Assembly (NCBI RefSeq): GCF_014904745.1
Contig: NZ_JACZCS010000023.1
Location: forward strand, 62,001-126,000
Reading direction: 5' to 3'
Origin: Oricola nitratireducens
Lineage (GTDB): Bacteria > Pseudomonadota > Alphaproteobacteria > Rhizobiales > Rhizobiaceae
Length of the DNA: 64,000 bases
In this document: positions 3,234 to 55,674 of the stretch, one piece after another
How positions within the stretch are numbered: position 1 is the first letter of the stretch
Layout of the letters: every line of letters starts with the position of its first letter
The notes under the pieces: generated by a model
What the model saw: only the letters and a program-made list of their open reading frames with translations
Database searches by the model: none
Told to the model about the DNA's origin: nothing
Program-made: the position numbers and the translations under genes

Positions 3234-3932
3234 TCAGAACTTTTCCACCCATGGCCGGAGCGTCAGTTCCTCCGACCATGCGGAACGGTCCTGTCTGACC
3301 AGGGCGAGGTAGCTTTCGGCGATGGCGTCCGGATCGAGCATCGAGTCGGGCCGGTCCGGCGGCTCGACGCGGCCGGGAATGCGGATGGCGCCGTCGATAT
3401 TGATCCACGCCACGTGGATGCCCTGCGGATGCAGTTCGCGCGACATCGACTGCGCTAGGCCGCGCTGGGCGAACTTGCCCATGGCGAAGGGCGCCGATTG
3501 CGGAAATCCCTTCGCGCCCGCCGAAGCGCCGGTGAACAGGATCGTGCCGAGAACGCCGTTTTCCGGGGGCTGCGCCAGCATCTTGCGGGCCGCCGCCTGG
3601 CCGACCAGGAAGGCGCCGAATGCCGTGACCTGGATGGCATGGTTGACCGCGTCCGGGTCAAGCTCGACCAGCGGGCCGCGCTGGCGCGCCGAGGGGTTGT
3701 AGATCGCGACGCGCAGCGGGCCGCCGATGGCGGCGAACAGCTTGTCGACGTCGGCGGGTTTCGATGCGTCGCAGGCGATCCGCTCGGCGCCGGTTTCGCC
3801 GGCGAGCGCGGCGATCTTGCCGATGTCGCGCGCGGCGAGCACAAGCGCGTAGCCTTCCTTGTGGAGGCGGCGGGCCAGCGAGGCCGACAGGCCGTCTCCG
3901 ACGCCGACAACGAGAGCGATTGGTTTGGTCAT
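3234..3932 (-). CDS. SDR-family NAD(P)-binding protein lacking the catalytic Tyr
   Basis: A 232-residue Rossmann-fold protein of the short-chain dehydrogenase/reductase family. The nucleotide-binding loop GVGDGLSASLA is at residues 10-20, and a TGASAG strand supplies the usual serine (S137). Where classical SDRs have YxxxK, this protein reads F149-A-M-G-K153, so the general acid tyrosine is missing while the lysine is kept. I chose the ATG at 3932 because AAGGTGAT lies just upstream; an 18-residue longer version has no support. It is convergent with the HEVAH gene. It may be an atypical reductase or a non-catalytic binding protein; the substrate is unknown. Confidence 0.75.
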   Translation of the reverse strand: MTKPIALVVGVGDGLSASLARRLHKEGYALVLAARDIGKIAALAGETGAERIACDASKPADVDKLFAAIGGPLRVAIYNPSARQRGPLVELDPDAVNHAIQVTAFGAFLVGQAAARKMLAQPPENGVLGTILFTGASAGAKGFPQSAPFAMGKFAQRGLAQSMSRELHPQGIHVAWINIDGAIRIPGRVEPPDRPDSMLDPDAIAESYLALVRQDRSAWSEELTLRPWVEKF

Positions 3933-4090
3933 TGCGCTATCACCTTGCGAGCAGGATTGGCCGGGCAAGGGGCGATAAAACGCCATATGCGCCGCTCACG
4001 CAAATAACAGGCAGGATAACCGGTTCTTCCCGATCAACATGTGGCATCGCCTGTCAGGGAGGAGCCGGGCAAACTCGCGCGGCCGACGGG

Positions 4091-5893
4091 TTACGCGCTT
4101 TCGCGGTGAAGGCGCACTTCCTCGAGGAAGGTGTCGGCGAATTTTTCCAGCTTGGATGCGCCGACGCCGTGGAGTTCGGCGAAATCGGCGTGGTTTGCCG
4201 GCTGGCGTTTCGCCATGTCGATCAGCGTCTTGTCGGAGAAGATGACATAGGCCGGGACCGAGCGTTCGCGCGCCAGAACGGTGCGCCGCGCCTTCAGGCG
4301 TTCGAGGAGTGCTTGCGGGACATCGGCGTCCAGCTCGATCGCGGCGCCCGAGCGCGCCTTCCTGCCGGCGGGACGGATCATGTCCGGCCGGTAGCGGAAC
4401 TCGCATTTGCGTTCGAGCAGGTCGTGGCCCTTGGGCGAAATCGAGATGCCGCCATAGCCGGCGACGTCGATCACCAGATAGCCGCCGCCGACGAGCTGGC
4501 GGACCAGCGACTGCCAGACATTGCGGGGCTGGTTGCGGCCGGCCGCGAAGACCGGCAACCGGTCATGGCCGAGCGACTGCGCCTTCGGGTTGGCCTTGCC
4601 GAGCAGCAGGTCGACGAGATGCGTCGCGCCGAAGCGCTCCCCGGTCATCTGCGCGGCGAGCAGGATCTTGCGCGCATCCTCGCCGCCGTCGACGGTCTCG
4701 GCCGGATTGATGCAGACATCGCAATTGCCGCAGGGCCCGGTCGTCTCGCCGAAATAGGACAAGAGGCTCTGGCGGCGGCATTCCGGCGCCTCGCAATAGG
4801 CGACCAGCGAGTCGAGGCGCTTGTGTTCGCGGCGGCGGCGCTCCTCGTCGCCATTCTCGCCGTCGATGAAGCGGCGGCGCATCGAGATGTCCTGCAGGCC
4901 GAAGACCATATGGGCGTCGGCGGGCATGCCGTCGCGCCCGGCGCGGCCGATTTCCTGGTAATAGGCGTCGAGCGAGCCGGGCAGGTCGGCATGGAACACG
5001 AAGCGCACGTCCGGCTTGTCGATGCCCATGCCGAAGGCGATCGTGGCGCAGACGATGACGCCGGTTTCCGTCATGAAGAGGTTTTGCGCATCGGATCTCT
5101 GCTCGGGCGAAAGCCCCGCGTGATAGGGCACGGCGCGGTAGCCATTGTCCGACAGGAAGGCGGCCAGTTCCTCGCTGCTCTTGCGCGAAAGGGCATAGAC
5201 GATGCCGCTTTGCGACGGGCGGCCCTCGAGGAAGGCGAGGAGCTGCTTTTTCGTGTTCGCCTTGGGCTCGACGGTCAGGCTGATATTGGGGCGGTCGAAG
5301 CCGGCGACATATTGCTCGGCATCGCCGGCGAAGAGCTTCTCGACGATGTCGCGGCGCGTCGCCTCGTCGGCGGTGGCGGTGACCGCGCCGATCGGCACAC
5401 CGGGAAAGGCCGTCCTCAGTTCCTGCAGCATGTCGTATTCCGGCCGGAAGGACGCGCCCCATTGCGAGATGCAATGCGCCTCGTCGATGGCGATCAGGCT
5501 GACGCCGGTCTTTTGCAGCGCCGCGATCATGCGGCCGGTCATCAGCCGCTCGGGCGCAAGGTAGAGGATGCGCACCTGTCCGGAAGCGACGCGGCGCCAG
5601 ATCGCGACATTTTCCTCGCGGCCGGCGGACGAGTTGATGGTCTCCGCGGCGACGCCGGCGAGCTTGAGGGCCGCGACCTGGTCCTGCATCAGCGCGACCA
5701 GCGGCGAGACGACCACGGCCAGACCGCCCTTGACCAGCGCGGGAACCTGGTAGCACAGCGACTTGCCGGCGCCCGTCGGCATGACGGCGAGCACGTTGCG
5801 GTCCGCCAGCAGGATATCGACGATGCGCTCCTGGCCCGGCCTGAAATCGTCGAAACCGAAAACGTCTTTCAGAACGGCGTGTTTGCTGGACAT
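4091..5893 (-). CDS. recQ: ATP-dependent DNA helicase RecQ
   Basis: A 600-residue 3'-5' DNA helicase used in recombination and replication-fork repair. It has Walker A TGAGKS at residues 40-45, the DEAH box at 137-140 followed by the RecQ-typical CISQW, the helicase C domain, a four-cysteine zinc site (the CEAPEC and CGNCDVC segments near 370-397), a winged-helix region and a C-terminal HRDC domain. The length is normal for the family. I used the ATG at 5893; a 14-residue extension is possible and neither start has a strong ribosome site. It appears to be monocistronic. Confidence 0.95.
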   Translation of the reverse strand: MSSKHAVLKDVFGFDDFRPGQERIVDILLADRNVLAVMPTGAGKSLCYQVPALVKGGLAVVVSPLVALMQDQVAALKLAGVAAETINSSAGREENVAIWRRVASGQVRILYLAPERLMTGRMIAALQKTGVSLIAIDEAHCISQWGASFRPEYDMLQELRTAFPGVPIGAVTATADEATRRDIVEKLFAGDAEQYVAGFDRPNISLTVEPKANTKKQLLAFLEGRPSQSGIVYALSRKSSEELAAFLSDNGYRAVPYHAGLSPEQRSDAQNLFMTETGVIVCATIAFGMGIDKPDVRFVFHADLPGSLDAYYQEIGRAGRDGMPADAHMVFGLQDISMRRRFIDGENGDEERRRREHKRLDSLVAYCEAPECRRQSLLSYFGETTGPCGNCDVCINPAETVDGGEDARKILLAAQMTGERFGATHLVDLLLGKANPKAQSLGHDRLPVFAAGRNQPRNVWQSLVRQLVGGGYLVIDVAGYGGISISPKGHDLLERKCEFRYRPDMIRPAGRKARSGAAIELDADVPQALLERLKARRTVLARERSVPAYVIFSDKTLIDMAKRQPANHADFAELHGVGASKLEKFADTFLEEVRLHRESA

Positions 5894-48364: not shown

Positions 48365-50506
<2,142 letters not shown>

Positions 50507-50723
50507 GGGAGTAGGGGAGCGCGAGCCGTTGTGGCCGGTTTGTGGGGCGGGAACGGACTGGCGGCTTGTGGCGAGCCGAGCAACCGAAGCGGACATCCAA
50601 TTATCTAACGCCCATAGCCGCTTCCGGCCCATAGCTTTCATGGAGCGGGCGGCCCGCCGCTGCAATGCAGATTCCTCGAAGTTGACATTCGCTGTAGGCT
50701 TGGGAGTCGCGTAGTGAACTTCA

Positions 50724-51671
50724 TCAGTTCAACGCCTCGATGATGCGGCCAGCGATTTTCGGCTTGTCCAAGTAACCGATGATTCCGTGACGATTTTCTG
50801 TTTGGTTTCGCAAGGTGGCGATATTCTCGATCGCCGGATCGATGTCGAAATTGTCCGCATCGAGCGGATAGAGCGCCACAACGTCTCGATTGTCATAGCC
50901 GTTGAGCCACGCCTGGACGACGGCGGGGTGATGGAGCGGCTTGAGCGGCCGGCGGATGGCTCGGATACCGAGCGGCGATCCGAGGGTGACGAGTAACGGC
51001 ACCTTTGGCGCCGTAAGTTCCCGTAGGATATAGTAGGCGACGACCGAACCAAGCGAATGGGCGATGATTACCGTCGGACGATCATCGATTTCCCTGCTGA
51101 CGATACCGTTGATGATCCGACGTACCGCCGGGCTCGAATTGTAGACATAGACATCGCGGAGTGCGATCTGCAGTGCATCGGAGGTGATGCCGTCGCTATG
51201 GCTGTCGATTGCGCGGAAGATCGCTTGCACCCATTCCCAGTTGAGCGGCCCCTTCGGGCGCGGATTGTCTCCGTAGGCATCATCAACCTCAGCGTCGGTG
51301 ACGCCAGCCTTAATTCGCAGGTCCTGCGCGACTTCGGCCTGGAATGCCAGGAAAGCGTCCTGCTCGGCCGTTCCGCGGGCCGTTACGTCCGCGGCGAGCG
51401 GCAGATCGAACTCGGCCGTCAGGCGGTCGAGCTCGTCTCCGTAGAACGGCAGCGCGATATTGAGATCGTCCGGAAGGGCCATCCCCGCAGCGCTAGCCCC
51501 CTCCTTGAGCGCCTTGATCCATTCTCTGCGGATGTCGGCAACATTGCGCCCGCCCTGCGCGCGGCCATGAACGAACAGGATTCGCCGTATCGGCTCCCCC
51601 CTTGCCTCATGGAACGCCAGCGCCGACATTGCGGCTGTCGCCCCGGCCATGAATTCGCGTCGTCCAATCAT
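50724..51671 (-). CDS. Tat-leader alpha/beta hydrolase, partner of the caspase-like gene
   Basis: A 315-residue predicted serine hydrolase. The N-terminus GRREFMAGA followed by a hydrophobic stretch (residues 3-24) is a twin-arginine export signal. The mature part has an oxyanion-type FVHG at 33-36, the nucleophile elbow AHSLGS with S206, and candidate acid and His residues at about D260-D263 and H295. This is a lipase/esterase-like fold with unknown substrate. Its ATG overlaps the stop of the caspase-like gene in ATGA, so the two proteins are translationally coupled. The flanking 50507-50723 holds no gene. Confidence 0.72.
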   Translation of the reverse strand: MIGRREFMAGATAAMSALAFHEARGEPIRRILFVHGRAQGGRNVADIRREWIKALKEGASAAGMALPDDLNIALPFYGDELDRLTAEFDLPLAADVTARGTAEQDAFLAFQAEVAQDLRIKAGVTDAEVDDAYGDNPRPKGPLNWEWVQAIFRAIDSHSDGITSDALQIALRDVYVYNSSPAVRRIINGIVSREIDDRPTVIIAHSLGSVVAYYILRELTAPKVPLLVTLGSPLGIRAIRRPLKPLHHPAVVQAWLNGYDNRDVVALYPLDADNFDIDPAIENIATLRNQTENRHGIIGYLDKPKIAGRIIEALN

Positions 51672-53551
51672 TGCGGAACGCCTCTCGGGGGTGTGTTGGC
51701 GACAATATCGGTGATGAGTTTGGCGGCTTCGTCGCCGTATGTGGTCCAGAGGCTGTCGAGCAACGCCGGCCGCGCGATGGCCATGATGCGCGACATCGCC
51801 ACGCCGCGGACCCTCAGATATTCCCAGCCTTGGCGCATCAACGGAAACGGCGGCACCACGGGCACGCCATTCCGGCTGCGTCCGTCCGGATCGAGACGCC
51901 CGGCGAGCAGTCCGATGTCGAAGATCTCGGCGCCGAGCGAATCGAGTATGATATCGTGTACCGAGCGAACGCCGTCCTCCATGAAGCCGGTTGCGTAAGC
52001 GTAGGCGGCGAAGATGCCGAGGGTCGGATCGAATCCCTTGCCCATGCGGACCCGGCCGGCGAAGCTGCGCGCCGCCGCCTCCCGCTCCTCGCGCGATCCT
52101 TCAAAGACGAGCGCGCCCTGCCGCGTCGCTTCGGCCGCGAGCCCGCGCAGGAACGCCAACCGGTCGACCTCGTTCAGATATTCGAAGAAAAGATAGTTTG
52201 ATTGCGCCGGATTGAAGCGCAGGTCGATGACGCCTTGTGGCCCGACTGTCACGTGTGTCCCGAAATCCTTCAGGATGGGAAGAACCGTCCCGCGACCATC
52301 CTCGAAGAGCACCGCCGCATGCGCAGCCCGCTGGCCATCGGGCATGTAGGCGCGCCAGTTGTCGGCGCCCGGCACTTCGGGCGCCCTGCCCGTATCGATC
52401 CCCCATGCCCCGACCTGTGCGACCTTGGCTCCGTAGACGACGAACCCGGTATCCTCCACTTCCACGTCCTTGCGCTGGAAATCGACCGACTGGAAGACGA
52501 GTTCGCCGGCCTTGCGTGCCGCCGGGGACATGTCACCGGTAACGACAAACAGCTCTCCCGCCGCCCTGGTACCGGTCACGATGTCCTGCACCGCCTTCTG
52601 CACCGCATCGGGCACGGCGATGTCCGACGGTTCGGGCCCTCTTGGCGGCGGAGCGGGACCGTCGTCCGCCACATGGAGCTGGCCGACGAATGTCGGGATG
52701 TCGGAGGTGATGCGCGCTTCGGGATATTGCGTCAACCGGATCGAATGGTCCTGCGCCCGCGCGCTGACTTCGCGAAACAGGAAGTCGCGCATTTTCCGGT
52801 TCGGAATCACGGTCACGCCATTGTCGAAGCGATAGACCATGTCGTCCGTGGGCCGGGTGAACGCCTTGAGGAAGGCGGCCGTGTAGATGCCTTCATGCTG
52901 CGGAACGCTCTCGCTGACGGGAAGTTCGTAGGAATCAGCACCGGGCCTCGTGCCGAAGAAGACGTCGACGTCGGTGCGGCGATCCGGCGTCCGCCCGGCG
53001 GGGAAGATCTTGCGTCCCGTCACCTGGCTGGTTCCGAGGTCGCTAGCGAGAGACCTGCAGGCATCCGATATCATGACGACGTTGGGAATGTTCGACTGGT
53101 AGGCAAGTTCGGTGCTTTCGAGCACCGATACGGCTTCCGCCGTGTCGTAAGGCGCGTTCGACAGCATCCAGATCTCGGTCGTGCCGCTCAGGAAGCCGTG
53201 CCCCGAGAAGTAAATGACGAGCTGGTCCAGACCGGCCGGATCGTCGACGAAACCGGCGACGGCATCGAAGAGATCCGAGCCTCTGACAGGACCACCGCTA
53301 TCGGTGAACAGTCGCGTATCGAAACCTTCGCCGCGCAGAAAGGCAGACATTTCCTCGGCGCCTGAAACGGCAGCTCTGAGGTGAGGAAGATGCGGGTAGG
53401 AGTCGATGCCAATAACTACAGCCGCCCGCCGCAACCTGCTGATATCGAATGTGCCCTGCGCATGAAGGTGCCTAGTGGCAAGGCTTCCGAACAAGGTCAT
53501 ACCCCCCACCAATACGTGTCGCCGTCCTACGCGTTTCGATAGGTGACCCAT
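51668..53551 (-). CDS. Exported caspase-family (C14) protease-like protein
   Basis: A 627-residue protein. A twin-arginine type leader (RR at 10-11, hydrophobic core, end near AQG at 33) precedes a caspase-like domain (about 40-280) with catalytic His118 in SGHG and Cys165 in ISDACRS, the normal dyad spacing. A Pro-rich hinge follows near 300, then about 300 residues I do not recognise, including an AAYAYATG segment. The ATG at 53551 gives the clean leader; a TTG ten codons upstream is an alternative. A sigma-70-like promoter lies just upstream. It is coupled to the hydrolase gene. Confidence 0.78.
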   Translation of the reverse strand: MGHLSKRVGRRHVLVGGMTLFGSLATRHLHAQGTFDISRLRRAAVVIGIDSYPHLPHLRAAVSGAEEMSAFLRGEGFDTRLFTDSGGPVRGSDLFDAVAGFVDDPAGLDQLVIYFSGHGFLSGTTEIWMLSNAPYDTAEAVSVLESTELAYQSNIPNVVMISDACRSLASDLGTSQVTGRKIFPAGRTPDRRTDVDVFFGTRPGADSYELPVSESVPQHEGIYTAAFLKAFTRPTDDMVYRFDNGVTVIPNRKMRDFLFREVSARAQDHSIRLTQYPEARITSDIPTFVGQLHVADDGPAPPPRGPEPSDIAVPDAVQKAVQDIVTGTRAAGELFVVTGDMSPAARKAGELVFQSVDFQRKDVEVEDTGFVVYGAKVAQVGAWGIDTGRAPEVPGADNWRAYMPDGQRAAHAAVLFEDGRGTVLPILKDFGTHVTVGPQGVIDLRFNPAQSNYLFFEYLNEVDRLAFLRGLAAEATRQGALVFEGSREEREAAARSFAGRVRMGKGFDPTLGIFAAYAYATGFMEDGVRSVHDIILDSLGAEIFDIGLLAGRLDPDGRSRNGVPVVPPFPLMRQGWEYLRVRGVAMSRIMAIARPALLDSLWTTYGDEAAKLITDIVANTPPRGVPQ

Positions 53552-53586
53552 GTCAATATTGCCAAGCCGTAATGCAGTCAAAATTA

Positions 53587-53615
53587 ACTATACCACAATT
53601 GACTATGCTCGCCAA
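53587..53615 (-). promoter_or_regulatory. Promoter of the caspase/hydrolase operon
   Basis: On the minus strand TTGGCG (53610-53615) and TATAGT (53587-53592) are separated by exactly 17 bases, leaving a leader of about 30 bases before the ATG at 53551. It sits in a markedly AT-rich stretch (about 53570-53770) unlike the GC-rich surroundings. The remaining gap to 53973 shows no gene I can support. Confidence 0.55.
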
Positions 53616-53973
53616 CACAATAGATTTTCCGTTGACAGCAGACACAGTCTATTTTTCTGATGGTGGAATTTGGCTTGCTTTGAGTATTCATTCAGATATT
53701 GACCGGATGCGTTCAGGATATGGCGCATCATTTATATCGGGAGCTGCGCAAAGCATACGTCTTCTTTAATGGTACGCAAAGCCGCCGTTCGGCAACCATT
53801 TCCTCGCCGTCTGCCTCGGGCCGCGAATGCCCATTCAGCACGCTCCACACGCCGCCCAAGCGTTGGATAACCGCGTCCCCTCCCAATATCCCTTTCCCTT
53901 CGATCTCAACACCTTCCCCGCACCGCGCCCAAATTCTTGTCCACCGCCCGAAACCCGCTCCCATACTGCCCGC

Positions 53974-54810
53974 ATGGACCGCGACACGGACAATTGGTGG
54001 GAACTCGCTGTCGCGCGCAACCGCGCGGCGCTGACGCCGATCGTCACGGTGCTGTTCCTCATGGCGGGGCTGGACGAGGGCGGGGCGGCGACGCTGCCGC
54101 GCCGGGTCTTTCGCCGCATCCTCAAGGTGCTGCGTCCGGCCGAAACGGCGCTGCGCCGCCTGATCATGATCGCGGCGCACGGCATCGCGGTGACGGTGCG
54201 CGCGCCGGCCGCGCCGAAATATGTGCCGTGGTGGGCCGTCAGGCGGCGCGCGCGGGCAAAGGCCGCGAAGGCCGCGCCTGCCGAAACCGGCCGGCGCGCG
54301 GCGCCGCCGCCGGTGGTCGCCGCGATGCGTCCGGGCGCAGCGAAACCGAGGCCGGTCCCGGCGCACGAGATCTGCCGCCGCTTCGGGCTCGCCTGGGCCG
54401 GGCCGTTGCCCGAACCGGAAACGTCCGCCGCCCGCGTCCCGGCCTTCCGGCTGTTCGATCCGCTGAAGCGGTTCGCGTTCGAACCGGAGCCTGCGCCCGC
54501 GCCGCCGGGGCGTTTCGATCCCGCGCCGGACAGCGAGATCGGCGCCAAGCGGATCTGCCGCCGTGTCGCGGCGCTGAAGGCCGCGCTCGACGACATCGGC
54601 GGCGAGGCGATCCGGCTTGCGCGCATGCGGGCGCGCGCAAACCAGGCGTGGCTGTCCGGCCGCCATGTCCGCGGTCTGCGCTCGTCGCCGGTGCGCGCCG
54701 GCTGGCCGCCCGGCTGGCGCAAGCGGCCGGTCCACGCGATCGACGACATCCTGCGCGAATGCGACACGCTGGCGCGCAATCTGCCGGCAAAAGATCCCGA
54801 CACGTCGTGA
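53974..54810 (+). CDS. Pro/Ala/Arg-rich conserved hypothetical protein
   Basis: A 278-residue protein with no recognised domain. It begins MDRDTDNWWELAVARNRAAL, has a moderately hydrophobic stretch near residues 20-35, and then long low-complexity Ala/Pro/Arg segments (about 75-180). The C-terminal part contains RRVAALKAALDDIGGEAIRLARMRARA, probably helical. The ATG at 53974 is chosen because the upstream extension is Pro-rich and lacks a ribosome site. Its codon use fits the GC-rich neighbours. It may be a lineage-specific rhizobial protein; function unknown. Confidence 0.55.
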   Translation: MDRDTDNWWELAVARNRAALTPIVTVLFLMAGLDEGGAATLPRRVFRRILKVLRPAETALRRLIMIAAHGIAVTVRAPAAPKYVPWWAVRRRARAKAAKAAPAETGRRAAPPPVVAAMRPGAAKPRPVPAHEICRRFGLAWAGPLPEPETSAARVPAFRLFDPLKRFAFEPEPAPAPPGRFDPAPDSEIGAKRICRRVAALKAALDDIGGEAIRLARMRARANQAWLSGRHVRGLRSSPVRAGWPPGWRKRPVHAIDDILRECDTLARNLPAKDPDTS

Positions 54811-54840
54811 CCGCCGCGTATCCCGCGCCGGCCGCGCAAC

Positions 54841-54865
54841 CCTTCTCCGCCCGCGCGGGGGAGGG
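54841..54865. repeat. Short GC-rich palindromic element
   Basis: CTTCTCCGCCCGCGCGGGGGAG forms an imperfect hairpin between the unknown protein gene and the convergent cupin gene. It resembles the small intergenic palindromes scattered in rhizobial genomes, but only one copy was noticed here, so the repeat status is unproved; it could equally be a transcription-end hairpin. Confidence 0.3.
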
Positions 54866-54896
54866 CGGCCGCATGCGCGGGTGGGGCCCGCAAGCG

Positions 54897-55580
54897 TTAT
54901 TTTTTGCGCGCGCGGGTGAATTTCATGGTGTGGCCGGCAATCGCGTCGGCCGCGCCGGTCCACGCATAGGCGAGCAGGGCCGGCTCGTGCAGCGAGGTGC
55001 GGATCGTGTGGGTCGTGCCGGCGGCGTTGAAGATCATCGATGGCGGGCGGAAGACGCCGAGATCGTTTTCGGAGACGGCGCCCGACAGGACGATATAGCT
55101 CTCGGTAATGCCGTCGTGGCGATGCGAGGGATAGACGCATCCCGGCGCGAACAGCACGAAACCCAGGACGAGTTCGGCGCAATCGACGAAGCCGCCGGGG
55201 CCGAGAATGTCGGCATAGGCATATTTGCGCGCCAGCGCGGCGGGCAGCTTCTCGTAGCCATATTCCCAGCGCAGCCGCGGCGCCAGCTTGGCGGTCGCGC
55301 GCACGAAGATCTCGGTCGGTTCGCGCACGCCATTGTCGAGGGCGCGGCCGAGATGCCGCGTGGCGGGCAGGCTTGCCGGCTCCGGCATGCGCGTCTGCGG
55401 CCCGGCTTTGAGGATCTTCGCCAGCCGCTCGCGAACCATGCGCATATGCGCGCGGATCGGGGCGCTGCCGCCGGTCGGCGCGTAGCGATAGGCGGTTTCG
55501 AACTCCCGCAGGAGATAGAACAGGTCGATATCGTCGGCGAGATGCGGCGCGGCCGGCATCTGGTCCTGGGTCGTCTGCAT
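54897..55580 (-). CDS. Cupin DMSP-lyase-like protein (DddQ/DddL superfamily)
   Basis: A 227-residue protein: helical N-terminal half, then a single cupin barrel. Cupin motif 1 is at 147-166 with metal ligands H153, H155 and E160 and the nearby Y162, and motif 2 ends with H191. The H-x-H-x4-E-x-Y pattern and the long helical N-terminus match the cupin DMSP lyase-like superfamily, in which some members cleave DMSP to DMS and acrylate while others have different substrates. The ATG at 55580 has AGGAGG upstream. The dddP gene in the same window supports the idea; activity itself is an inference. Confidence 0.6.
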   Translation of the reverse strand: MQTTQDQMPAAPHLADDIDLFYLLREFETAYRYAPTGGSAPIRAHMRMVRERLAKILKAGPQTRMPEPASLPATRHLGRALDNGVREPTEIFVRATAKLAPRLRWEYGYEKLPAALARKYAYADILGPGGFVDCAELVLGFVLFAPGCVYPSHRHDGITESYIVLSGAVSENDLGVFRPPSMIFNAAGTTHTIRTSLHEPALLAYAWTGAADAIAGHTMKFTRARKK

Positions 55581-55674
55581 GGGGCCTCCTGAACCCAAAG
55601 AGTTGTCACGGTCACATTATTGCCCGTGACGCGTCAGTATCCTTGACCTATACCGCGTCGCGGAGCAAACCATC

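Follow-up and report, generated by a model that had tools for sequence, protein, structure and literature searches.

A widespread caspase–hydrolase gene pair in Oricola nitratireducens with matched twin-arginine type leaders and conserved candidate cut sites

In a stretch of 64,000 nucleotides from Oricola nitratireducens (contig NZ_JACZCS010000023.1, positions 62,001 to 126,000; hereafter the window, to which positions refer unless another locus is named), a minus-strand gene pair at 50724-53551 encodes a caspase-like protease and an alpha/beta hydrolase. The pair is a widespread module. In most of the pairs compared the hydrolase carries two conserved candidate cut sites, and in one group of pairs, that of Oricola included, both proteins bear twin-arginine type leaders. 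The two proteins are, on balance, rather likely to form a proteolytic switch with a role in biological conflict, the caspase serving as sensor and activator and the hydrolase being made as a lipase- or esterase-like pro-enzyme. The fuller reading, with two cuts and a periplasmic site of action, is held tentatively and falls somewhat short of an even chance. An original prediction, drawn from the DNA letters alone, had singled out this pair, and its claims are taken up where the evidence bears on them.

The caspase domain belongs to the caspase superfamily by Pfam score, catalytic dyad and fold. PF00656 (Peptidase C14) matches it with 60.8 bits against a cut-off of 21.4 (E 2e-16), and the same family is matched by all 19 caspase members tested (E up to 1). 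The His118/Cys165 dyad named in the original prediction is kept in 40/40 of the pairs described below. In the structure model (mean predicted local distance difference test score, pLDDT, 78.4) the best solved-structure match is MALT1 (Z 20.8, root-mean-square deviation, rmsd, 3.1, with 217 residues aligned). D462 and E500 of MALT1 anchor the P1 arginine (PMC4626109), its catalytic cysteine is Cys464 (PMC4659944), and D132 and E176 have been proposed as the corresponding acids in a cyanobacterial orthocaspase (PMC8283722). D163 of the Oricola caspase stands two residues before the catalytic cysteine, like D462. The assignment of E209 to E500 relies on motif and spacing, because a PDB profile search with the second half of the caspase domain returned no MALT1 match. 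Cleavage after Arg or Lys is predicted from D163 and E209.

The C-terminal 300 residues of the caspase, which the original prediction had called unrecognised, matched no Pfam family in this protein, and among the 19 caspase members the region drew only weak Pfam matches, each to a single member. In the model, strands (369-448) are followed by helices (455-619), a region which the fold searches barely cover. A 572-position caspase profile that includes it matches 40 partners nearly full length (L027 and L048 in two pieces), so this type of caspase regularly includes the unrecognised C-terminus, a likely sensor or regulator. The PHROGs collection gave a single weak match for the caspase and no match for the hydrolase.

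The hydrolase matched no Pfam model above cut-off. Its model (mean pLDDT 80.7) has the alpha/beta-hydrolase fold and best matches NirD/DDHD domains (Z 13.7, rmsd 3.7, with 210 residues aligned). High-ranking matches also include lysosomal phospholipase A2 and LCAT, with thioesterases and others within about one Z unit. S206, the nucleophile proposed in the original prediction, is invariant in 27/27 aligned hydrolase rows, as are D260, D263 and H295. Fold and Ser-Asp-His triad together place the protein in the alpha/beta hydrolase superfamily, and the fold neighbours would be compatible with a lipase- or esterase-like activity on lipids or another ester. A related paper assumes that alpha/beta hydrolases serving as effectors hydrolyse the lipids of membranes (PMC8195603).

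For comparison, 40 caspase–hydrolase pairs were assembled from Proteobacteria, Bacteroidota and plasmids: the Oricola pair itself, 18 from a scan of species genomes, nine from sampled genomes, nine from plasmids found via the hydrolase and three from plasmids found via the caspase, the last chosen for the presence of a caspase. The plasmid records examined were 13 of 50 from the hydrolase search and 3 of 25 from the caspase search. Left out were short duplicates (L002-L004, L035-L047), L020 (caspase cut by the contig end), L024 (fragments) and loci scoring below 150 bits on the hydrolase profile (L005, L006, L028, L034, L052, L058-L067, L072); in L032 and L073 the hydrolase was scored and stood without such a caspase.

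Homologues of the two genes are mostly adjacent, as the original prediction required. The species-genome scan found 20 hydrolase relatives with a caspase upstream in 19, the remaining locus (L024) retaining a 220-residue fragment; all ten stronger matches in the sampled genomes (E <1e-49) have a caspase partner, that in L052 broken by stops; and nine of the 13 plasmid records from the hydrolase search do likewise. The other four plasmid hydrolases adjoin a CHAT protein (L032), a VMAP protein (L028), a WD40 protein (L034) and a protein with no Pfam match (L072). Remote relatives of the hydrolase adjoin TPR-S/trypsin proteins in four loci (L062-L065), and in L066 a trypsin, a non-specific endonuclease and the hydrolase are fused in one frame of 1115 residues. 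Clustering of shared neighbours revealed no additional common partner among the first twelve groups, which are mostly frames of the pair itself. The genes of a pair lie close together, with an intergenic gap of at most 35 bp in 37/40 pairs. The ATGA overlap noted in the original prediction was found as described, and a 4-bp overlap occurs in 13/40 pairs with the Oricola pair counted (12/39 others).

Two positions in the hydrolase support a proteolytic switch. Of the 285 hydrolase columns, exactly two are invariantly basic across the 31 pairs with E209 in the caspase, namely R99 and K140 in the Oricola numbering, and Gly follows both in 31/31. Only five Gly columns are invariant, and the chance that both basic columns precede one is 2.5e-4 by simple counting, a figure computed post hoc that ignores relatedness. 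At site 1, P4 is I, V or L in 31/31 and P2 is A, T, S or P in 28/31. The MALT1 consensus is LXP/SR|G (PMC4659944), and site 1 resembles such a site in sequence. Site 1 falls within a stretch of the hydrolase model with pLDDT below 50, and the two sites, 41 residues apart here and 40-48 across the E209 rows, bracket the first helices of a long cap that the model places between strand 71-73 and the nucleophile strand 201-205.

In the nine remaining pairs E209 is replaced by A, M, H or V. Their site 1 is M in eight and Q in one, with Gly after it in 9/9, whilst site 2 is non-basic in 7/9 and followed by Gly in 6/9. When the set is thinned to 22 rows of less than 60% identity, pairs with E209 are basic at both sites in 16/16, and those without it in 0/6 at site 1 and 2/6 at site 2. 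Among 18 aligned hydrolase loci that score low or lack this caspase, 12 could be placed, with R/K-G in 0/12 at site 1 and 2/12 at site 2 (remote alignments). Activation of the hydrolase by proteolysis, one of several roles raised in the original prediction, has gained support in the form of two conserved candidate sites, the first varying with the caspase residue of S1 type; it stays a prediction from sequence. Nothing was found in favour of the further suggestion, a secreted toxin-like module, although no systematic search was made for secretion partners or immunity genes.

Both proteins start with a twin-arginine pair and a hydrophobic stretch, as originally described. Leaders were scored in the 40 pairs by a rule that requires RR with a start codon upstream of it and a hydrophobic 12-mer downstream. 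By this rule both proteins have a leader in 16 pairs, neither in 24, and no pair is mixed. The hydrophobic stretch required was shortened to 12 residues after the result had been seen; with a stricter length of 13 the hydrolases of L030 and L069 score as leaderless and agreement falls to 38/40. L049 scores as having neither leader, and weak RR leaders are visible by eye in both its proteins. Twin-arginine translocation (Tat) signals share a consensus motif, and motifs of the RRxFL type occur in both proteins throughout the exported group. The Tat-signal model PF10399 gave weak matches in 3/19 caspases (best E 0.017), and TatC is encoded in the Oricola genome. The leaders thus have the features of Tat substrates (twin-arginine motif, hydrophobic stretch, TatC in the genome) and are very probably real export signals, judged as such; the scoring rule is unable to separate Tat from Sec, since it demands RR.

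On midpoint-rooted trees of both proteins the outermost groups are leaderless. Three changes of leader status are needed by the rule, or two if L049 is counted as exported, and one exported clade for all is acceptable under the approximately unbiased test (AU, p 0.515). Since the outer groups are leaderless, the changes few and one exported clade acceptable, export was probably added to both proteins together, and perhaps once, a direction which depends on the midpoint root. Export is a property of one group of pairs and not of the whole family.

The distribution of the pair is patchy. Strong relatives (E <1e-49), the own genome counted, occur in 3/199 genomes of the family, 4/397 of the order, 2/385 of the class and 5/398 of the phylum. 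The corresponding site lacks the pair in 5/5 congeners: in two, a gene which we take from its translation to be ligA is followed by a dimethylsulfoniopropionate (DMSP)-lyase-like gene, in two it is followed by a presumed azlC, and one has another insert. In Oricola the insert contains, besides the pair, a single long open reading frame (ORF), of 327 residues and without a Pfam match. Pairs are also found on plasmids typed as conjugative, for example pSinB and a pTi plasmid. An exported pair on a Sinorhizobium medicae plasmid (L030) adjoins a metallo-beta-lactamase (MBL) protein (LmuA/Avs1a/RTasMBL models) and a subtilase, with matches to defence models. Such a scattered, mobile distribution and neighbours known from conflict systems make defence or cell death a likelier role than housekeeping, and the pair is probably a conflict or defence module borne by mobile DNA.

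A scheme can be proposed in which a trigger would lead the caspase to cut the hydrolase after R99 and after K140, in both cases before Gly. Judging from conservation and from the covariation of S1 with P1, the two cuts would remove a 41-residue part of the helical cap and open the active site. The opened enzyme may then attack lipids or another ester, as its fold would allow. Because both proteins carry Tat-type leaders, they would most likely cross to the periplasm folded and act on the envelope. Such switching-on by caspase cuts would resemble the activation by caspases of killer enzymes in animal cells. Assembled in all its parts, as a MALT1-like caspase working outside the cytoplasm that excises the cap segment by two basic-Gly cuts and so turns a pro-lipase into an envelope effector, within an immune or suicide module that has no NTPase and arose when both proteins of a cytosolic ancestor gained Tat leaders, the scheme is possible rather than probable.

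Several observations weigh against this scheme. The loss of E209 is one event on both trees, and the two groups are split equally cleanly by 12 hydrolase columns, of which site 1 is one, and by 17 caspase columns, of which E209 is one, so that the covariation taken alone is weak. Site 2 does not show the P4/P2 pattern of MALT1 sites, keeps R or K in 2/9 pairs without E209, and reads R-G in L032 and L059, hydrolases which stand beside other partners. The hydrolase of L065, beside a trypsin, has M-G at site 1. Lys occupies site 1 in 12/31 pairs, and a Lys variant of HOIL1 is hardly cut by MALT1 (PMC4659944). The exported rows may have one origin (the AU result above), so the 40/40 agreement in leaders reflects far fewer independent events; its use as a count of many such events was dropped once the trees showed two to three changes. 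Finally, no recognised defence gene flanks the pair in the window, among the few neighbours inspected.

This last point, together with the Tat-type leaders on both proteins and the lipase-like fold neighbours (phospholipase A2 and LCAT included), would suit a periplasmic caspase that switches on a lipase when the envelope is damaged, in starvation or in development, the same proteolytic switch put to a use other than immunity. We regard that use as unlikely, if a serious contender, since it accords poorly with the very patchy spread from family (3/199) to phylum (5/398), the absence of the insert in congeners, carriage on plasmids and the relatives in conflict systems. It is improbable to a greater degree that the pair cooperates without cutting, with a caspase that scaffolds or inhibits the hydrolase and with R/K-G positions that are structural. 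A Gly after a basic residue can indeed be structural, the cutting is itself predicted, and the S1 change is one event; set against this, the caspase His/Cys dyad is kept in 40/40 pairs, the basic residue of site 1 gives way to M or Q in 9/9 pairs without E209, and site 1 lies in a low-confidence stretch of the model.

A proteolytic switch can also be imagined with leaders that are not Tat signals, the same module being exported by Sec or anchored in the membrane. The leaders are known by motif and hydrophobicity, and the rule that counts them itself demands RR, which leaves some room for this view; the RRxFL-type motifs that both proteins of the exported pairs carry, the weak PF10399 matches (3/19 caspases, best E 0.017) and the presence of TatC make it a poor bet. 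Least credible, and very improbable indeed, is a pair of independent degradative exoenzymes that share an operon for nutrient scavenging. Both proteins look exported, as such enzymes should; yet 24/40 pairs are leaderless by the rule, the basic-Gly sites are invariant without being catalytic, and the hydrolase family is repeatedly paired with other protease types. The paired switch with a conflict role remains the interpretation preferred here.

The coordinates of the pair and its surroundings are collected in Table 1. The single shared promoter of the original prediction fared less well than the genes themselves. A sigma-70-like hexamer pair does lie at 53615-53587 (9/12 matches), but the region has three such sites where 1.3 are expected from shuffles, and one shared promoter is therefore at best plausible.

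Table 1. Features of the caspase–hydrolase locus (positions in the window)
Feature	Position	Strand	Basis or remark
Caspase-like protease gene	51668..53551	(-)	627 aa from ATG; in-frame TTG at 53581 possible; ORF, PF00656, full-length conserved partner
Alpha/beta hydrolase gene	50724..51671	(-)	315 aa; S206 at 51054-51056; D260/D263, H295 invariant
ATGA overlap, caspase stop/hydrolase start	51668..51671	(-)	4 bp
Caspase leader, residues 1-31, twin-arginine type (KRVGRRHVLVGG...)	53459..53551	(-)	RR leaders in homologues too
Hydrolase leader, residues 1-25, twin-arginine type (MIGRREFMAGA...)	51597..51671	(-)	Sequence motif
Caspase domain, about residues 41-292	52676..53431	(-)	PF00656, fold, conservation
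Caspase H118	53198-53200	(-)	
Caspase C165	53057-53059	(-)	
Caspase S1-type acid D163	53063-53065	(-)	
Caspase S1-type acid E209	52925-52927	(-)	
Caspase C-terminal region, residues 343-619	51695..52525	(-)	Common to paired caspases; no Pfam name
Candidate cut site 1, R99-G100 (VTAR|G)	51372..51377	(-)	Model pLDDT <50 there; conservation
Candidate cut site 2, K140-G141 (PRPK|G)	51249..51254	(-)	Conservation
41-residue segment 100-140, predicted excised gate of the hydrolase cap	51252..51374	(-)	Prediction
Sigma-70-like promoter candidate	53587..53615	(-)	Weak
Insert absent from the site in 5/5 congeners	~50505..54895	.	Between ligA and the next conserved gene

A number of further observations concern the setting of the pair here and elsewhere. 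Under the 327-residue ORF, a stretch at about 53939-54818 has many diverged copies elsewhere in the Oricola genome and in congeners, and represents a multi-copy family. Beside the insert lies a DMSP-lyase-like cupin gene (54897-55598, minus strand; PF16867, E 1.7e-33), found at the site in 2/5 congeners. In a congener (L085, genome G058) the 3' end of ligA is repeated three times over about 3600-5100 of that locus, with cargo between the copies (a nucleotidyltransferase-like gene, PF12281); this part of ligA is possibly a hotspot for insertion. The MBL nuclease-like gene and subtilase of L030 (959-4290, minus strand) are divergent from the exported pair and look like a gated nuclease–protease pair. 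In two leaderless pairs, on plasmids of Sinorhizobium fredii and Rhizobium ruizarguesonis (L074, L075), there follow on the same strand a helix-turn-helix gene, an ImmA/IrrE or I42-inhibitor protein and a C1 peptidase. L017 (9949-11631), L018 (2-1888) and L070 (3-1082) each have another caspase-like frame no more than a few kilobases from the pair. Both frames are interrupted in L052 (genome G798), a decaying copy of the module. The orphan hydrolase of L073, which has neither R/K-G site, lies beside gltX, tRNAs and metal-efflux genes in a record labelled Acinetobacter phage, possibly a bacterial contig under a phage name.

The original prediction held that the pair matches no nameable system. 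That claim, and with it the notion of an unknown orphan pair, had to be given up. A caspase in a VMAP ternary system is always accompanied by a gene for an alpha/beta hydrolase (Kaur et al. 2020, eLife, PMC7159879), so that a caspase-superfamily domain with a neighbouring alpha/beta-hydrolase gene is common to both. There the caspase is fused to the VMAP protein, or occasionally is its neighbour, and acts together with MoxR and vWA components, whereas the Oricola locus is a two-gene unit with leaders and another C-terminal region. Membership of VMAP was rejected, no MoxR, vWA or VMAP components being found among the pair, the 327-residue ORF of the insert and the ligA and DMSP-lyase-like genes beyond it, and no VMAP model on the caspase proteins. 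A Streptomyces relative of the hydrolase counts as an instance of the VMAP arrangement through its neighbour, a VMAP-M2 protein; a GHG...DTC pattern like that of caspases occurs in the N-terminal region of this neighbour (weak profile match, E 0.1). The VMAP passages of PMC7159879 give no cut sites, and its main text uses neither 'exported' nor 'secreted'.

The activation principle likewise has a precedent. In canu (CanABC) a caspase complex activates a pro-nuclease whose presumed gate consists of two insertions that contain conserved glycines (PMC12799240). A MALT1-like caspase lies there upstream of its effector, as here, and the effector is gated by two disordered insertions until the caspase complex activates it. 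Canu differs in its MBL-type nuclease effector, its three genes and the Ig-like C-terminal fold of its caspase; the present pair has an alpha/beta hydrolase, two genes and Tat-type leaders, and the nature of its effector excludes it from canu. The repeated coupling of the hydrolase family to unrelated proteases parallels the nuclease–protease pairs of the same paper. Membership among EACC1-associated caspases was also rejected, model NF047832 scoring 41.1 bits, far under its cut-off of 140.

Leaders on caspase homologues are not in themselves new, nor is a hydrolase neighbour, since both have precedents. The YS pseudo-orthocaspases of cyanobacteria carry a TAT-like RR leader at the N-terminus (PMC6426788), but their His-Cys (HC) dyad is replaced by Tyr and Ser, a role in photosynthesis has been proposed for them, and the word 'hydrolase' is absent from the main text of that paper. 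In a survey of prokaryotic metacaspases 46 sequences have a single N-terminal helix, maybe a signal peptide, and hydrolases are among the commonest operon neighbours (PMC3501461). The passages of that survey describe no pairing of leaders, Tat motif or cut site, and its main text contains neither 'Tat' nor 'periplasm'. In view of these two papers, such a Tat-type leader was no longer counted as a novelty in its own right. Human MALT1 shares with the Oricola caspase the closest solved fold, the acid two residues before the cysteine, the second S1-type acid and an R|G-type site in the candidate substrate; the Oricola protein is bacterial and exported-looking, with another C-terminal region and with Lys at P1 in 12/31 candidate substrates.

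Thus the pairing and the activation principle are already published. What appears to be new is the stand-alone exported form, in which an HC-type caspase and a hydrolase bear matched leaders and two covarying candidate cut sites occur; no exported caspase–hydrolase pair was found in the open-licence literature, among the matches listed. Bacterial caspase defences listed in PMC12799240 comprise type III CRISPR, gasdermin, NLR, Thoeris and canu systems. If protease and effector did move to the periplasm together, caspase-type activation could work at the envelope, where lipid targets lie. To our knowledge, the caspase defences so far listed all act inside the cell. The predicted cut sites and the S1-type residue make the caspase/alpha-beta-hydrolase pairing of 2020 testable by point mutants. 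If the proposed scheme is true, it would extend the nuclease–protease theme of 2025 to a second class of effector, found here beside caspase, CHAT and trypsin-type proteases.

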